DNA of 26,965 nucleotides from a virus. The DNA lies in the IMG/VR virus record IMGVR_UViG_3300017749_000107, positions 1 through 26,965 of that record, one strand, 5' to 3'. The notes below the pieces were generated by a model. It saw only the letters and a list, made by a program, of their open reading frames with translations. It was not told the origin of the DNA and ran no database searches. Positions within the stretch are counted from its first letter, which is position 1. Every line of letters begins with the position of its first letter. Shown one piece after another: positions 6,558 through 24,750 of the stretch. The translations under genes were made by a program, and so were the position numbers.

Positions 6558-7535
6558 ATGGCAATAGATACAATTAAATCCTCAGCAGTACTTGACGGTG
6601 CTATTGCAACAGCTGATATTGCAGATGATGCTGTAACTAATGCAAAGATTGGTTCTGGTGCAGTTGGAGCAACTGAAGTTGCAAGTAATGCTGTAACAAC
6701 TGCAAAGATTGCTAGTGGTGCAGTGACTTCTGCGAAATTAGATACGAATATTGCGATTACTGGTGACTTAACAGTAGATACAAATGTTCTAAAAGTAGAT
6801 TCAACAAATAATAAAGTTGGCATTAATGTAACTTCACCAGATGCAATGCTTCAAGTTCAAAATGGTGACATAACTGTTGGTTGGGCTGATAATTTTATTG
6901 GTACGCAGTTTCAAACTGGTTCAGATTTCCGTCTTGGAATGAAATTTGCAACAGTCGCTAGAACACTAAAACTTGTTGCCGAAACAAATGATAATAACGG
7001 TGAAATTACATTTGAAACAAACGGTTCAGAAAGAGCAAGGGTTACTAATAATGGTATTACATTTAATGGTGACACTGCAGCTGCAAACGCCCTTGACGAT
7101 TATGAAGAAGGCACTTGGACACCATTTTATACCTCTCAACATGGCAATCTTACTTTGAATGGAAACGCAAGTAATACTTCAAGTATGTATACATCTCAAG
7201 GCGGTTCATATATTAAAATTGGTAAAAAGGTTATTTGTCATATGACACTTGCAACAACTGGTGTAACATCATTTGGTGGTAGTGGAAACTTATGGGTTGC
7301 AGGCCTTCCTTTTGCAAACGCTACAACAACTGTAAGTAAACCAAGAGGAGTTAATGGTTGCATGGCTGGAAGATTTAACAGTTTTACACCAGACCAACTA
7401 GTATGTAATAGTAATGCAACAACAATACAAATAAGAGCTGGGTTTGAATCTTATCCAGATATTAATAAACTTGATACGGGCGGCAGTGGTAACCGAAATG
7501 TTATTGAAGCACTTATTGTATACGAAACTGCATAA
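6558..7535 (+). CDS. Tail fibre protein with TTAKIA repeats and DDYEEGT tip domain
   Basis: This 325-residue fibre-like protein begins MAIDTIKSSAVLDGAIATAD. It carries three or four short repeats of the type ADIADDAVTNAKIGSGAV (residues 15-60), a common trimeric-fibre module. Residues 65-175 include KVGINVTSPDAMLQVQNGDI, a pattern shared by many phage fibre shafts. A tip domain begins near residue 175 with ALDDYEEGTWTP and contains SYIKIGKKVICHMTL and GLPFANA. The same domain ends the proteins at 20547-21755 and 22855-23559. It probably trimerises and may bind a host surface ligand, as inferred from architecture. AAGGGA at 6543-6548 supports ATG 6558. It follows the 5529 gene by 15 bases, most likely on the same transcript. 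Confidence 0.78.
   Translation: MAIDTIKSSAVLDGAIATADIADDAVTNAKIGSGAVGATEVASNAVTTAKIASGAVTSAKLDTNIAITGDLTVDTNVLKVDSTNNKVGINVTSPDAMLQVQNGDITVGWADNFIGTQFQTGSDFRLGMKFATVARTLKLVAETNDNNGEITFETNGSERARVTNNGITFNGDTAAANALDDYEEGTWTPFYTSQHGNLTLNGNASNTSSMYTSQGGSYIKIGKKVICHMTLATTGVTSFGGSGNLWVAGLPFANATTTVSKPRGVNGCMAGRFNSFTPDQLVCNSNATTIQIRAGFESYPDINKLDTGGSGNRNVIEALIVYETA
6679..6713 (+). repeat. 35-base shared fibre repeat (TTAKIA module), copy A
   Basis: This block is identical over 35 bases to 23957-23991 in another fibre gene and over 25 bases to 20855-20879 in a third. It encodes ASNAVTTAKIA. Confidence 0.85.
7080..7120 (+). repeat. 41-base shared repeat at fibre tip boundary, copy A
   Basis: The 41 bases are identical to 23203-23243. 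A 23-base core (7092-7114) is also identical at 21336-21358. It encodes the ALDDYEEGTW junction that opens the tip domain of three fibre genes. Confidence 0.9.
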
Positions 7536-16685: not shown

Positions 16686-17495
16686 ATGTCTAACTATATT
16701 GGTGTTCCATACATTAATCAGATTTCGCCCAGTTTTCCAAAGGAAGATTTTAATGGGTCTAACTTTGGTAATGTAACTGGAGCGTATGCAACTCATACAA
16801 ATGCGATAGCATTATCTGTTGATGTGCCTGGCGCTAATGCAGAGAACCTCTTGGTCGTTTTGGATAACGTGGTTCAAGAACCAGATGTGGCATATACTGT
16901 TCACGAGGATTCAAATAACCAACCAAAGATTTTGAAGTTCTCAGAAGCGCCTGCTACCAACGCTTCTATCTATGTTGTACATAGAGGTATTGGTAACTAC
17001 AATATGGCGCCTCCTGCTGGTTCTGTTACTTCAACACAACTTGCTTCTGGACTAAAGAATATTACTACAGATTCATTCACAGGTAATGGTTCAGCGACTG
17101 CATACACACTTACAGAAACGCCTCCTCATGCAAACTCAATTCTTGTGATTGTTGATGGTATCGTACAAAAGGTTTCGACTAACTATAATGTATCTGGAGC
17201 AACTTTAACATTTAGTTCTGCACCAGATGCTAGTGCAGAGATTGAAGTAAAACATTTGGGTGTGCGTGGTGTTATTCGCAGAGGCCCAGATTTTCAAATA
17301 GACAATCTGACAGGGGATGGTTCTGCTACTGCATTCACTTTAACAAATGCTGGTGTCACAGCGAATAATGCTTTTGTATATTACAATGGTGTGTGTTTGA
17401 AACCTACTACTGATTATGGTATTAGTGGTACTACAATTACATTCACATTCGCTCCTGTTAATGCATCAGAAATAATGGTAAGGTATCAACTATAA
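16686..17495 (+). CDS. Fibre/linker protein with three GNGS-type beta repeats
   Basis: This 269-residue protein begins MSNYIGVPYINQISPSFPKE. It then shows three related beta modules at roughly residues 28-105, 125-195 and 203-269. The second and third open with DSFTGNGSATAYTL and DNLTGDGSATAFTL. All have a LVxxDxVxQEPxxxYxV-like strand pair and end in an IxVxHxG-like strand. The module recurs in the proteins at 19564, 20547 and, more degenerately, 23590. No receptor-type tip follows, so it may be a rod or linker joining fibre components. AGGGGTGGA supports ATG 16686. The stop overlaps the next ATG (TAATG at 17495), coupling it to the S74 fibre. N-terminal similarity to 19564-20184 (MSNYIG) marks the two as paralogues. 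Confidence 0.75.
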   Translation: MSNYIGVPYINQISPSFPKEDFNGSNFGNVTGAYATHTNAIALSVDVPGANAENLLVVLDNVVQEPDVAYTVHEDSNNQPKILKFSEAPATNASIYVVHRGIGNYNMAPPAGSVTSTQLASGLKNITTDSFTGNGSATAYTLTETPPHANSILVIVDGIVQKVSTNYNVSGATLTFSSAPDASAEIEVKHLGVRGVIRRGPDFQIDNLTGDGSATAFTLTNAGVTANNAFVYYNGVCLKPTTDYGISGTTITFTFAPVNASEIMVRYQL

Positions 17496-19270
17496 TGGCA
17501 AGTAAATCAAAAAATATCGCAGAACTTCTTAACGGTGACGTTACTATTGATGCAACTGACATTGCCAGTAACTCAGTTACTACGGCAAAGATTGCTGATG
17601 ATGCAGTAACAAGTGCGAAACTAGAAAACAATGTTACAATCGCTGGAAATTTCGATGCAAGTGCTGGTACTATCAAGTTAGATGGCAATTATCCAACAGG
17701 TACAGATAATACTGCTTTAGGTAATGGTGCGCTGGATGATGGTTCGTTGTCTGGTGGTTATAACGTAGCAGTAGGCGAAGCTGCCCTTGGTGAGAACGAG
17801 GGCGGTCAAGAAAATACTGCTGTTGGTTGGAATAGTTTAGATGCAAATACTTCCGGCAATAACAATACTTCTTTGGGCTCGCAATCTATGGGTGGAAACA
17901 CCACTGGATCTAGTAATACAGCAGTGGGCAAAAATGCTTTAAGAACAAATTCAACCGGCGGGAGCAACGTATCTGTTGGAACATCCGCTTTGAATGCAAA
18001 CACAACAGCTAGTGGCAACAATGCGTTGGGCGTAAACGCTCTGTTGAATAACACTACAGGGGCCGCCAATACTGCTATGGGCTATGCTTCGATGCAAGCG
18101 AACACTACCGCTTCCGAAAATACGGCGTTCGGCTACAATTCTCTTTTATCTAATACTACTGGAGCTGAAAATGTAGCATTTGGCGACAATGCTCTGCGTT
18201 CCAATACTACAGCGTCAAATAATACCGCTCTTGGCAGAACCGCTCTATTTACAAATACTACTGGAGCAGCGTTGACAGCTGTCGGCACTCAGGCACTTCG
18301 TCAAAACACAACTGCTAGTAACAATACCGCTGTGGGCCGCAGTGCGCTTTATAATGCTACTACAGGCGGCGAGAATACTGCGGTGGGCCAAGGTGCGCTT
18401 CAGACTATAACAACTAACAACAACAGCACCGGCATTGGACAAGCAGCAGGTAACGCTTCAACTGGAAGTTACAATACTTTTCTTGGTGCAAGAAGTGGAG
18501 CGACTCAATCGTCTGGCGACCAAAATACCTATGTCGGCGAGGCTTCTGGTTATTCTATGACTACAGGGACTCGCAACTCTATCCTTGGACGCTATAGTGG
18601 TAATGCCGGCGGGTTAGACATTCGCTCACTCAGCAACCAAATCGTTCTGTCTGATGGTGATGGCAATCCTAGAATGCTATTAACTGCCTCTGGTAAGTGC
18701 GGAGTTGGTGCTAACCTAGACCCAAATGGTGGCGCACAGTTTATAGCCCAGCAACCAGATAATAGTGTTGCTGTTGATGCTCGTTCCACAAGCTATTCTT
18801 ACACCAACATTGTTTTGCTAGTTGGTTCAAACACTAACACCACAAACAGCACCTATAACCACATCCGTGCCGACATTCACGGTGTTGCACAAAAGTTTGC
18901 GGTGCGAGATAGTGGTAATGTTGTAAATAGTAACAACAGTTATGGTTCTCTGTCGGACGCTCGCTTAAAAGAAAACATTACTGATGCTACATCTCAGTGG
19001 GATGACATAAAAGCAGTTCAAGTTCGTAAGTATAATCGTTTAGGTGAAACACAAAAAGAACTAGGAGTTGTTGCACAAGAACTTGAAGAATCTGGTATGG
19101 GTGGACTTACTGAAGATGCCACAGTTTACGATGTTGTAAACAATCCAGATGAGGAAACTCGTAAGAGTGTTAAGTATAGCATCCTCTACATGAAAGCACT
19201 TAAAGCACTACAAGAAGCTATGACACGAATTGAAACACTTGAGTCTAAAGTAGAGGCGCTTGAGTCCTAA
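17495..19270 (+). CDS. Tail fibre with YadA-like repeats and C-terminal S74 intramolecular chaperone
   Basis: The 591-residue protein has four parts. Residues 1-65 form the locus-typical N-terminal module (SVTTAKIADDAVTSAKLENN). Residues 70-370 hold about 17 repeats of 17 residues such as NTAVGKNALRTNSTGG, like the left-handed beta-roll heads of YadA-type adhesins. Residues 371-486 form a beta-rich section (SNQIVLSDGDGNPRMLLTA). Residues 487-591 are a peptidase S74 chaperone domain starting SDARLKENI and including KELGVVAQELEESG and SVKYSILYMKALKALQEA, then a short coiled coil. S74 domains trimerise and fold fibres, then cut themselves off just before the Ser; S487 and K492 would be the reactive pair. 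The repeat section is more GC-rich than the flanks. It is translationally coupled to the upstream linker gene. Confidence 0.88.
   Translation: MASKSKNIAELLNGDVTIDATDIASNSVTTAKIADDAVTSAKLENNVTIAGNFDASAGTIKLDGNYPTGTDNTALGNGALDDGSLSGGYNVAVGEAALGENEGGQENTAVGWNSLDANTSGNNNTSLGSQSMGGNTTGSSNTAVGKNALRTNSTGGSNVSVGTSALNANTTASGNNALGVNALLNNTTGAANTAMGYASMQANTTASENTAFGYNSLLSNTTGAENVAFGDNALRSNTTASNNTALGRTALFTNTTGAALTAVGTQALRQNTTASNNTAVGRSALYNATTGGENTAVGQGALQTITTNNNSTGIGQAAGNASTGSYNTFLGARSGATQSSGDQNTYVGEASGYSMTTGTRNSILGRYSGNAGGLDIRSLSNQIVLSDGDGNPRMLLTASGKCGVGANLDPNGGAQFIAQQPDNSVAVDARSTSYSYTNIVLLVGSNTNTTNSTYNHIRADIHGVAQKFAVRDSGNVVNSNNSYGSLSDARLKENITDATSQWDDIKAVQVRKYNRLGETQKELGVVAQELEESGMGGLTEDATVYDVVNNPDEETRKSVKYSILYMKALKALQEAMTRIETLESKVEALES
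17707..18603 (+). repeat. Tandem 51-base coding repeats (17-residue YadA-like units)
   Basis: About 17 in-frame units of 17 residues follow the pattern [N/E]-N-T-A-[V/F/L]-G-x-x-[A/S]-L-x-x-N-T-T-[G/A]-[A/S]. In the middle units the last residues alternate between TTAS and TTGA, giving a 34-residue superperiod. Repeats are degenerate at DNA level, so they are old or selected protein repeats and not a fresh tandem expansion. Confidence 0.85.
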
Positions 19271-19286
19271 CACATAGGAGAATAAA

Positions 19287-19532
19287 ATGGACGAACTAAC
19301 AAAAGAAGAAATCGCACAGAACTACACCGCAATGGGTCACAGCGTTGACCTCATCAATGCTATCATCGCTGGCGACACTATGGCAGATGACGATGCAGCA
19401 GATAAGCAGAAATGCGTAGACAGAAATGTTGAACATCTGGAATTGATGGTAGCAAAGGATTTTTGGACTACTGAAAATATGACAGCAGTTAATGCTGCTA
19501 TCACTGCTGGTAAAGATTATACAGCAGAATAA
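19287..19532 (+). CDS. Small acidic protein of unknown function downstream of the S74 fibre
   Basis: The 81-residue product is acidic and mostly helical: MDELTKEEIAQNYTAMGHSV, then DLINAIIAGDTMADDDAADK, then VDRNVEHLELMV and DFWTTENMTAVNAAITAG. No known motif, signal peptide or membrane segment is visible. AGGAGAATAAAATG gives it a strong ribosome binding site, and it lies 16 bases after the S74 fibre gene. Short helical proteins after fibre genes are often fibre assembly helpers or small virion components; that role here is inference from position. The stop TAA (19530-19532) is part of the late promoter core that follows. Confidence 0.65.
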   Translation: MDELTKEEIAQNYTAMGHSVDLINAIIAGDTMADDDAADKQKCVDRNVEHLELMVAKDFWTTENMTAVNAAITAGKDYTAE

Positions 19533-19535
19533 ATA
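19528..19535 (+). promoter_or_regulatory. Late promoter-like element (AATAAATA) overlapping stop codon
   Basis: AATAAATA includes the TAA of the small acidic gene and lies 29 bases before ATG 19564, with AAAGGTAG between. It is one mismatch from the T4 octamer. Confidence 0.6.
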
Positions 19536-19563: not shown

Positions 19564-20184
19564 ATGAGTAACTATATTGGAGCAGAACCGTCCTACGGAG
19601 TATTTGATAAACAGGTACTTGCTGGTGATGGTGCGACTACACAATTCAATCTAGATCATCCAGTGGCAACATCTTCACAACTGTTGGTCTCTTTGGATGG
19701 TGTTATCCAAGAGCCAGACCATTCGTATACCGTTTCTAGTTCTACTGGACAGGGAGTTATTAACTTCTCTGAAGCACCAGATAATGGTGGTAGAGTCTTT
19801 ATCACATATATGGGTAGACAACTACTACAGGCATCTGTTTCTCAATCTGAATCCTTTGTGGATGAATTTAATGGTAATGGTTCTACTACTGCATTTACTC
19901 TTACAAGAACACCAGTATCTAACGATGCAAGAAACTTCATGGTATTCGTAGATAACGTCTATCAGAGAGAGGGTTCTTCATATGCATTTACTGTTAGTGG
20001 ACAGACAATAACATTTTCTGCCGCTCCCCCAAGTGGAACAAATAATATTCAAGTTTATCAACTTAATAATATTAACACACTAAATAGTGTTGCAGATAAT
20101 ACTATCACAGTTGCAAAGGTTCAACAAGGAGTATTTGACCAAGCAGAAGATGATGCAACTGCATTGGCAATTGCTTTAGGATAA
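19564..20184 (+). CDS. Fibre/linker protein with two GNGS-type beta repeats, ending ALAIALG
   Basis: This 206-residue protein begins MSNYIGAEPSYGVFDKQVLA. Two beta modules follow: GDGATTQFNLDHPV (residues 22-90) and FNGNGSTTAFTLTRTPV (residues 103-170). Each has the LVxLDGVIQEPxxSYTV-like hairpin and a terminal strand. The end (NTITVAKVQQGVFDQAEDDA, then TALAIALG) contains a short TxAKV-type repeat and a hydrophobic tail like that of 15882-16292. The architecture is a shortened version of the 16686-17495 protein, and no receptor-type tip is visible. It heads the second copy of a three-gene arrangement with the genes at 20199 and 20547. A linker or adaptor role in fibre assembly is inferred. 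Confidence 0.73.
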   Translation: MSNYIGAEPSYGVFDKQVLAGDGATTQFNLDHPVATSSQLLVSLDGVIQEPDHSYTVSSSTGQGVINFSEAPDNGGRVFITYMGRQLLQASVSQSESFVDEFNGNGSTTAFTLTRTPVSNDARNFMVFVDNVYQREGSSYAFTVSGQTITFSAAPPSGTNNIQVYQLNNINTLNSVADNTITVAKVQQGVFDQAEDDATALAIALG

Positions 20185-23589: not shown

Positions 23590-24750
23590 ATGCCATTTAT
23601 CGGAAAACAACCACAGGCTGGTGCATATTCAAAGTTAGACGCAATAACAACTTCTGCTACTGCTACTTATAACTTGACACTAGATAGTGGTGCATACTCT
23701 CCTCAGAGTGCTAACCACTTGTTGGTTTCACTTAATGGTGTTATTCAAGCTCCACAAGATTCATTCACGGTCAGTGGTTCACAGATTATATTTGACTCTG
23801 CATTGACAAGTTCTGATGTTATTGACTTTATTATTGCACTTGGTGATACACTGGATATTGGTGTACCTAGTGCTGGTTCTGTTAATACAAGTCAGTTGGC
23901 AAACGATGCTGTGACTGCTGCAAAGATTGCTGCAGGAGTTGTTAATACAACAGAACTTGCAAGTAATGCTGTAACAACTGCAAAGATTGCTGATGATGCC
24001 ATTACTGGTGCAAAAATTGAAAACAATCCAACTATTGCTGGAAACCTTGCTGTTACTGGCACCAGTGCATTAACTGGTAATGTAGGTATTGGAACAGCTG
24101 CTGGTGGTAATCCTTTAGCAGTACAAGCAGATAGCGGTGCTGGTGGTATTGATATACTTGGTCGTTCATCTGATAACACTGCTACTATGGTGATTGGTAA
24201 AAGTGCTGATGGAAATACAATGTACAATACCATTACTAGTTATTCAAACAGAATGAGAATTCAGTCTGGTTTTTCTGGTGACAGCAATTCAATAGAATTT
24301 TATACGAATGACGGTTTGAGTATGAACATTGACTCTGCTGGTAGAGTTACCGCTGCAGGCACGCCATATTTTAGAGTTCAAAAAACTAATGGTAGTTTGA
24401 CAAGTGCTCAGATTATTATATGGAATACTGTCATTCAAAATGTTGGTAGTCATTATAACAGTTCAAATGGAAGATTTACTGCTCCAGTTAATGGAGTATA
24501 TCAATTTAACGTATTGGGGTCTATCACTTCTAGTCCAACAGACACTTCATTACACAGAGTAAGAATTAACGGAACTTTTCAATCAGACTTATTTCCAATT
24601 GCTACGAATGATGCAAGTCATATTTCTTACTGTCTTGCCTTTGCGCTCAAGTTGAGTGCAAATGATTATGTAGACATAGAATCTGGTAGTTCAACATGGT
24701 ATGGAACTGGAAACTATCATAATGGTTATACTGGTTATCTAGTAGGATAA
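23590..24750 (+). CDS. Tail fibre with TTAKIA repeats and C1q-like tip
   Basis: The 386-residue protein begins MPFIGKQPQAGAYSKLDAIT, followed by a divergent GNGS-type module (residues 20-90; LLVSLNGVIQAPQDSFTVSG). Residues 93-150 carry three TTAKIA-type repeats (NDAVTAAKIAAG, SNAVTTAKIADD, DAITGAKIENN). A shaft with TGNVGIGTAAGGNPLAVQAD follows. The C-terminal 128 residues look like a C1q/TNF-like jelly-roll: YFRVQKTNGSL, then NVGSHYNSSNGRFTAPVNGV, YQFNV, HRVRINGTFQS and LKLSANDYVDIESG. C1q-like tips form trimers and bind protein or glycan ligands. The protein is the best receptor-binding candidate here together with 25580-26314. It is followed by a small protein whose paralogue also follows the other C1q-type fibre. 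Confidence 0.82.
   Translation: MPFIGKQPQAGAYSKLDAITTSATATYNLTLDSGAYSPQSANHLLVSLNGVIQAPQDSFTVSGSQIIFDSALTSSDVIDFIIALGDTLDIGVPSAGSVNTSQLANDAVTAAKIAAGVVNTTELASNAVTTAKIADDAITGAKIENNPTIAGNLAVTGTSALTGNVGIGTAAGGNPLAVQADSGAGGIDILGRSSDNTATMVIGKSADGNTMYNTITSYSNRMRIQSGFSGDSNSIEFYTNDGLSMNIDSAGRVTAAGTPYFRVQKTNGSLTSAQIIIWNTVIQNVGSHYNSSNGRFTAPVNGVYQFNVLGSITSSPTDTSLHRVRINGTFQSDLFPIATNDASHISYCLAFALKLSANDYVDIESGSSTWYGTGNYHNGYTGYLVG
23957..23991 (+). repeat. 35-base shared fibre repeat (TTAKIA module), copy C
   Basis: Perfect 35-base match to 6679-6713. Encodes ASNAVTTAKIA within the repeat region of the C1q-type fibre. Confidence 0.85.

Follow-up and report, generated by a model that had tools for sequence, protein, structure and literature searches.

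A tail-fibre gene of a marine T4-like phage that very probably joins a resident anchor to an imported adhesin cassette

The fibre locus

We analysed a stretch of viral DNA of 26,965 nucleotides (IMG/VR record IMGVR_UViG_3300017749_000107, positions 1 to 26,965; hereafter the window), in which a gene at 17495-19270 encodes a tail-fibre protein of 591 amino acids that ends in an S74 chaperone domain and is followed by a small partner open reading frame (ORF). This 27-kb fragment encodes T4-type baseplate proteins of the gp25, gp6 and gp8 families, and its gp6 is 72% identical to that of Melnitz, a phage of the Methylophilales (OM43), 55% to that of Pelagibacter phage Mosig and 51% to that of HTVC008M. 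Judged by these proteins, the window is part of a marine T4-like phage, a relative of Melnitz, and belongs with the pelagimyophage-like T4 phages. In pelagimyophages the host recognition cluster has VrlC and gp14 as its borders. In the window, the tail-fibre region is preceded by a gene for a 2208-amino-acid protein (DUF4815 / phrog_358), a candidate for VrlC; gp14 lies outside the window, and a neck protein follows the corresponding region in Melnitz. Window gp6 was sought in the other fetched contigs and found in none of nine, a result that is uninformative because these contigs are fragments. An earlier note, made from the letters alone, had proposed that the fibre is a mosaic whose shaft was acquired separately and fitted between an anchor and a chaperone that were both resident. 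The features of the locus are listed below; loci fetched for comparison carry the letter L and a number.

16686-17495, plus strand: resident upstream fibre protein of 269 amino acids, the left flank; 62.5% amino-acid identity to Melnitz gene 170 and 88% to L086-L088
17495-17648, plus strand: resident N-terminal anchor, residues 1 to about 52, MASKSKNIAELLN plus TTAKIADDAVTSAKL repeats; 91% DNA identity to L086 as far as 17600
17639-17666, plus strand: left seam, from the end of resident homology (17648) to the start of shaft-donor homology (17666); I-A-G codons alike on both sides
17666-17959, plus strand: shaft-entry block (GTIKLDGNYPTGT..., residues 58-155); 78% DNA identity, closest to L019, L008-L011 and L022
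17666-18580, plus strand: repeat shaft, predicted to form a beta-solenoid in which a strand recurs about every 17 residues; predicted local distance difference test (pLDDT) of blocks mostly 58-90 over residues 70-370
17852-18964, plus strand: segment of raised G+C at third codon positions (GC3), residues 120-490, from a change-point search
18581-18955, plus strand: tip or pre-chaperone region, residues 363-487; 76% DNA identity to L005
18953-18970, plus strand: S74 motif Ser487-Asp488-x3-Lys492, a putative self-cleavage site; invariant in 8 of 8 aligned fibres
18956-19267, plus strand: S74 intramolecular chaperone, expected to be released; PF13884, 33.7 bits against a cut-off of 22
19287-19532, plus strand: partner ORF of 81 amino acids with three predicted helices, which travels with S74 fibres
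19523-19535, plus strand: right seam GCAGAATAAATA, in which the partner ORF's final codons and its stop overlap ATAAATA (19529-19535)
19564-20184, plus strand: resident downstream fibre protein of 206 amino acids, the right flank; 68% amino-acid identity to Melnitz gene 173 and 85% to L086

Borders of homology

Where does resident sequence give way to imported sequence? On the left, L086, L087, L088 and L098 match the anchor at 90-92% DNA identity to position 17600 and, shifted by one repeat, to 17648, after which they continue into a different adhesin, so that the earlier suggestion of a resident N-terminal module holds. The DNA match of Melnitz, L113 and L103 to the anchor ends at 17564-17565. 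For residues 1-65, such matching of nearest relatives was used in place of a tree, because this part is short and made of repeats. The 78% DNA similarity to L019, L008-L011 and L022 begins at 17666 and ends at 17950-17959, and the shaft entry is 89% identical to that of L019; among the compared loci, no close relative of the mid-shaft region was found. From 18581 to 19526, a span that takes in the tip, the chaperone and the partner ORF, L005 and L006 match the window at 75-76% DNA identity. Resident homology then returns, at 19523 in the L086 group (94-95% DNA identity), which carries a different adhesin between the joints, and at 19520 in Melnitz, whose synteny had been interrupted at 17564. 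These ends and starts of homology place the left joint at 17648-17666 and the right joint near 19523-19533. On the homology map, the segment from about 17650 to 19530 is an imported adhesin cassette lodged in an exchange slot, and we consider it very probable that the 591-amino-acid protein is a distal tail-fibre adhesin in which a resident anchor has been fused to an imported unit of shaft, tip, S74 domain and partner.

The phage from which L005 and L006 derive is of another kind. L005 has genes for an internal virion protein of the T7 type, for a large tail fibre and for a terminase that is about 61% identical to the terminases of Roseobacter phage CRP-125 and Pseudomonas phage LUZ100, and its G+C content (GC) is 44-45%; L005 and L006 are fragments of a T7-like phage.

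Composition of the fibre gene

The five hand counts of G+C in the earlier note were all exact (144/300, 30/60, 22/60, 21/60 and 91/240). Against a GC of 39.0% for the window, the sliding-window analysis that it had recommended gave 500-base windows at 46-50% solely across 17751-19000, and the shift in codon choice was likewise recovered for residues 70-486 relative to the other genes of the window (GGC, 0.39 vs 0.12; GCG, 0.21 vs 0.08; GCC, 0.13 vs 0.05; GCA, 0.23 vs 0.50). Raw GC as proof of foreign origin was dropped, since shafts are partly GC-rich through their amino-acid make-up and the Gly-rich adhesins found in the same slot are GC-rich too. Because raw GC misleads in this way, we relied on amino-acid-corrected GC3 together with DNA homology.

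With amino acids held fixed and the other genes of the window as reference, the GC3 z scores were +0.2 for residues 1-65, +6.0 for 70-370, +4.4 for 371-486 and -0.4 for 487-591; the highest value among 240 windows of 100 codons from the other genes was 2.95. A change-point search delimited the raised segment to residues 120-490 with a z of 8.2, whereas 2000 simulations under the null gave at most 4.86 (edges, 5-95% range: start, 73-186; end, 432-530). Thirteen other genes of the window were of sufficient length for this test, and their best segments had a z of 3.9 or less. The compositional shift in the fibre is real. It takes in the pre-chaperone tip (371-487) besides the shaft, its upper edge lies near the putative S74 cleavage site, and it suggests a past stay of the cassette in a genome of higher GC than that of the window. 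Another compositional outlier, a putative fibre gene at 6558-7535, has the lowest corrected GC3 in the window (z -3.7).

Shaft, tip and chaperone

The label 'YadA-like' that the repeats had been given found no backing, in that no Pfam YadA head matched and PF13884 was the sole match at E 0.001; a phmmer search of the fibre against PDB sequences gave no match at E 0.1. Across the fetched loci, 63 shaft entries of the GTIKLDGNYP type were listed. Among 59 copies with less than 80% mutual DNA identity, codon agreement over successive tens of codons (codons 0-29) was 0.547, 0.479 and 0.450, compared with 0.416, 0.368 and 0.332 predicted from the codon usage of each genome, and the excess in the flanks of the block was 0.03-0.07; this statistic ignores relatedness. 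Such codon conservation may point to a favoured joint, or it may reflect no more than slow evolution.

The PF13884 match spans residues 487-532, the domain being C-terminal (from 487 of 591), and the SDxxxK motif is present in 71 of 72 S74 fibres. We take Ser487, Asp488 and Lys492 to be the S74 catalytic Ser, the following Asp and the Lys five residues on. By profile, motif and C-terminal position the domain is an S74 intramolecular chaperone, with autocleavage and trimeric folding as putative activities. A helix is predicted at its end (563-590), at low confidence.

The slot in related phages

We used the two resident neighbours as probes and obtained 27 filled slots; loci without both flanks, slots shorter than 500 bases, those with identical main proteins and L090-L094 were set aside, and the window was represented by a second contig, L004. 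The occupants have a MASKSK-like start in common and, past residue 60, fall into 10 tip clusters (blastp, E 1e-8 over half the length), which include the S74/repeat fibre of the window, seven Gly-rich tips, eight with 'FEHR.FGEELxLCQRYY'-like ends, and others. A small ORF precedes the downstream gene in 23 of the 27 slots, and these ORFs form six clusters. All seven Gly-rich tips (L084, L113, L125, L127, L128, L132 and L145) are accompanied by one partner family of 106-131 amino acids, which is phrog_7759 in Melnitz, the L113 tip itself matching PF21722; another partner family accompanies seven of the eight FEHR tips. Neither Melnitz nor the L086 group has an S74 tip in the slot. A conserved anchor with different distal parts in one genomic slot is, as read from these sequences, modular tail-fibre exchange, and the relatives are seen to carry other tips, mostly with other partner ORFs, in the same slot.

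In L090-L094 the slot neighbours adjoin with 28 bases between them, an empty slot, and L109:453-6001 is a 5.5-kb slot with four fibre-like genes and a small ORF after each. Elsewhere in the window, a further fibre at 23590-24750 begins with an N-terminal module of similar kind and has a tip that resembles C1q (PF00386). Over the N-terminal 160 residues, this fibre is 61% identical to a protein of Melnitz, the rest of which is unmatched. This suggests a second exchange slot.

The right seam

At the right border, the end of the imported DNA and the restart of resident DNA are mapped by homology to within about 10 bases of each other, at a stop codon that overlaps a late-promoter-like ATAAATA. 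An exact copy of the 20 bases GCAGAATAAATAAGAGTATG is present in each of 12 viral contigs, and the partner ORFs of these contigs fall into three kinds (81, 94 and 61-62 amino acids); the Ala-Glu-stop ends of these 12 ORFs follow from the pattern searched for, and the three kinds of ORF do not. Among the 27 slots, TAAATA occurs within the last 75 bases in 26 and overlaps the last stop codon in 17, under a rule set here. The late promoter of S-PM2 is given as NATAAATA, and that of T4 and KVP40 as TATAAATA (PMC2984593). The plus strand of the window has 10 copies of ATAAATA and the minus strand has none, and nine of the 10 sites (168, 5493, 7532, 16298, 19529, 21755, 23556, 24747 and 25036) lie 24-36 bases before the start of a listed ORF. 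The number itself is not above chance (7.3 +/- 2.8 expected; 19 of 100 shuffles reached 10), and the argument therefore rests on strand and place.

The partner ORF

Our search in viral contigs returned 545 candidate relatives of the 81-amino-acid protein, of which 80 were kept. In 73 of 97 resolved rows, a redundant set in which five rows are the window's own locus, an S74 fibre stands upstream; six further rows had no readable upstream ORF. The family has 15 invariant columns in 33 sequences and is found in seven phage records, from Roseobacter, Pelagibacter and OM43 phages and one metagenomic record. The model is of three helices (pLDDT 95.3) without a significant fold match in the PDB, and there was no Pfam or PHROG match of note; in particular, neither sequence (Pfam, PHROG) nor fold (PDB) similarity linked it to a T4 gp38-type adhesin or assembly factor. 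Its neighbourhood points to a possible role in assembly.

In the pelagiphage HTVC112P, a family member lies downstream of an annotated glycosyltransferase of 293-294 amino acids, the order in L156:3623-4755 (gp49-gp50) being tail fibre, putative glycosyltransferase and family member. Another member, Venkman gp54 (L157:4348-4590), carries the annotation 'putative F-box and FNIP repeat protein', apparently in error.

Origin of the cassette

Did the cassette arrive in one piece? In trees of 28 non-redundant fibres, the chaperone groups the window with L005 (Shimodaira-Hasegawa-like approximate likelihood ratio test, 99) and a grouping with L019 is rejected (approximately unbiased (AU) test, p 0.001); L005 is the nearest relative of both the chaperone (79%) and the tip (69% amino-acid identity vs 48% for the next relative). 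In the shaft-entry tree, the window groups with L019 and L014 (99). The separate phylogenies advised in the earlier note thus differ between shaft entry and chaperone, but just one of the two AU tests rejects the other's grouping. With p 0.087 for window plus L005 in the shaft-entry tree, a composite cassette is not proven; we think that the cassette is nonetheless probably composite, with a tip, chaperone and partner that derive from the T7-like lineage of L005 and a shaft entry that derives from another.

The alternative that survives best is a single transfer of a whole L005-like fibre with its partner ORF, followed by rapid turnover of the shaft repeats, such that the shaft merely looks separate. 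It draws on that unrejected AU test and on the entry motif and the repeats, alignable along the whole shaft, that L005 and the window have in common. It has to contend with the closer identity of the shaft entry to L019 and with the bounded block, 17666 to 17950-17959, of 78% DNA similarity to L019, L008-L011 and L022. Because turnover alone would not bring closer similarity to other phages, we regard a single transfer as rather unlikely, though it deserves to be taken seriously.

The proposal that import was confined to the shaft, both anchor and chaperone being resident, fares worse. The anchor is indeed resident, the composition of the chaperone is local, shaft entry and chaperone differ in their nearest relatives, and the shaft does look foreign in both composition and homology; the tip, the chaperone and the 81-amino-acid ORF were imported too, however, since their match to the T7-like L005/L006 runs up to the resident restart, and the S74 domain is missing from the slot in Melnitz and the L086 group. 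What of the chaperone's composition? The fetched loci gave 123 S74 fibre ORFs, which a length rule and de-replication reduced to 72; of these, 56 had enough background, namely at least 2.5 kb of other coding sequence. The S74 end lies below the GC3 of its own genome in 42 of the 56, with a z below -2 in 27; in L005, the chaperone GC3 is 0.22, compared with 0.40 predicted by its genome (about 45% coding GC), and the window chaperone is also at 0.22. Because S74 ends are mostly GC3-poor, that of L005 included, the local-looking composition of the chaperone is no evidence of residence. As a methodological warning, an S74 chaperone with local composition is not thereby resident. Import of the shaft alone is very unlikely, and the resident chaperone of the earlier note has to be given up.

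Still less likely, by a little, is that repeats or selection produced a codon bias in a native gene. Shaft GC exceeds chaperone GC in 46 of the 56 fibres, so that the raw step in GC is partly a matter of amino-acid make-up. After correction, the picture is different. Taking the 300 codons ahead of the S74 domain as the shaft and measuring their GC3 excess over their own genome, we found the window first of the 56, at +0.16 with the runner-up at +0.07; z exceeds 2 in five fibres and is below -2, the opposite shift, in 25, and shaft GC3 follows genome GC3 across S74 fibres (rho 0.83). A repeat-driven shift in every relative, which the earlier note had named as evidence against a mosaic, is accordingly absent from these non-redundant fibres. 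With the window first of 56 and opposite shifts common, the shift is not repeat-driven and the shaft looks foreign; the breaks in homology are, moreover, direct.

An assembly chimera, conceivable in that the window comes from a viral contig with no isolate behind it and repeats are prone to misassembly, is the most improbable of all, given that L004 differs from the window at 26 of 13,773 positions, encodes a 100% identical fibre and contains both joints (candidate loci being the best 80 of 132 in the search that gave L004 and the best 80 of 545 in that with the 81-amino-acid ORF), that the right joint is also present in L097 and L249, and that the right seam is common to 12 contigs.

Several observations weigh against an imported cassette of shaft, tip, S74 domain and partner as we have drawn it. 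The lower edge of the raised GC3 (about residue 120) is off the left junction of homology (about 52-58). Taken as a whole, the model of the fibre is poor, with a mean pLDDT of 56 and no significant PDB match in Foldseek. The partner ORF tree is poorly resolved, and among the best 80 of 545 the nearest relatives of the partner (86-88%) are others than L005 (81%); a non-S74 neighbour stands beside this ORF in 24 of the 97 resolved rows. In the slot survey, four of the 27 slots have no partner ORF, the eighth FEHR slot (L133) falls outside the one-tip-one-partner pattern at the threshold used, and some partner families serve two tip clusters, as in L103 and the L086 group, whose tips cluster apart. 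The shaft-entry AU test counts here as well.

Mechanism and known systems

How might such a fibre work? In S74 proteins the domain folds the trimer and then leaves by self-cleavage. In the window, the anchor, which relatives have in common whatever their tip, would dock the fibre to proteins of the resident neighbour genes. Three chains would fold into a beta-solenoid under the S74 domain, and this domain, whose motif residues are present, would cut itself off after Ser487. If it is released there, residues from about 363 to 487 would form the distal tip that meets the host. The partner ORF may help to assemble or modify its own fibre type, and exchange may proceed during co-infection by way of short similarities at the two seams. 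Like the S74 endosialidase-type chaperones, the window fibre has PF13884 and Ser-Asp-x3-Lys in a C-terminal position; it differs in having a repeat shaft and no recognised enzyme domain. A regulatory element tied to module exchange has reportedly been described in a paper on 'mobile regulatory cassettes'.

Modular exchange of tail fibres has been described before, and the event is therefore of a known kind. Pelagimyophages, the T4-like phages of SAR11, have a host recognition cluster (PMC7029224), an island of variable tail fibres among the structural genes that is comparable to the region studied here; YadA domains are noted among the putative receptor-binding proteins of that cluster. The excerpted text of that paper portrays the island as a whole, and the single slots, seams and partner ORFs come from this analysis. 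Marine phages are also described as having metaviromic islands at their tail fibres, and a YadA domain is present in one of them (PMC3909814). Fibre-plus-chaperone modules are common to the unrelated Alteromonas phages A5, V22 and P24 (PMC10579305), another case of an adhesin with a small partner gene across phage families; their chaperone is a separate gene, whereas the window has an intramolecular S74 domain and a three-helix partner ORF. In T4-like phages gp37/gp38 are frequently shuffled (PMC3797505), which is likewise a modular exchange of distal fibre determinants; the window differs in having no gp38-like adhesin match and in its border element, which is late-promoter-like and overlaps a stop codon. 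Melnitz, an OM43 methylophage (PMC9004378), has the gene order, flanks, slot and N-terminal start of the window, but its slot holds a Gly-rich tip and a 123-amino-acid partner ORF, and no S74 domain. In the open-licence literature we found nothing on the slot, on the GTIKLDGNYP block (sought by its letters) or on the 81-amino-acid partner, which has no name to search for. Defined seams and a conserved helical partner protein are what this analysis adds to the known exchange.

We suggest, tentatively, a more general arrangement in marine T4-like phages: a standardised adhesin socket that would accept any cassette of tip plus partner between a short seam in N-terminal coding sequence and a 3' seam of the partner's stop codon and the late promoter of the following gene, in which the GTIKLDGNYP block of about 90 bases might serve as a second joint for shaft exchange among SAR11, roseobacter and window phages, and the 81-amino-acid protein might be a widespread dedicated partner of S74 fibres. 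The joints are placed to within a few tens of bases, and this precision allows one to ask whether short similarities, such as the stop-plus-late-promoter seam and the shaft-entry block, steer the exchange. A swap of cassettes would re-target the phage while its docking is kept. Because exchange of an adhesin between phage families needs a shared host at some time, the tip common to a T4-like and a T7-like phage would be a lead to phages that have met in one cell.

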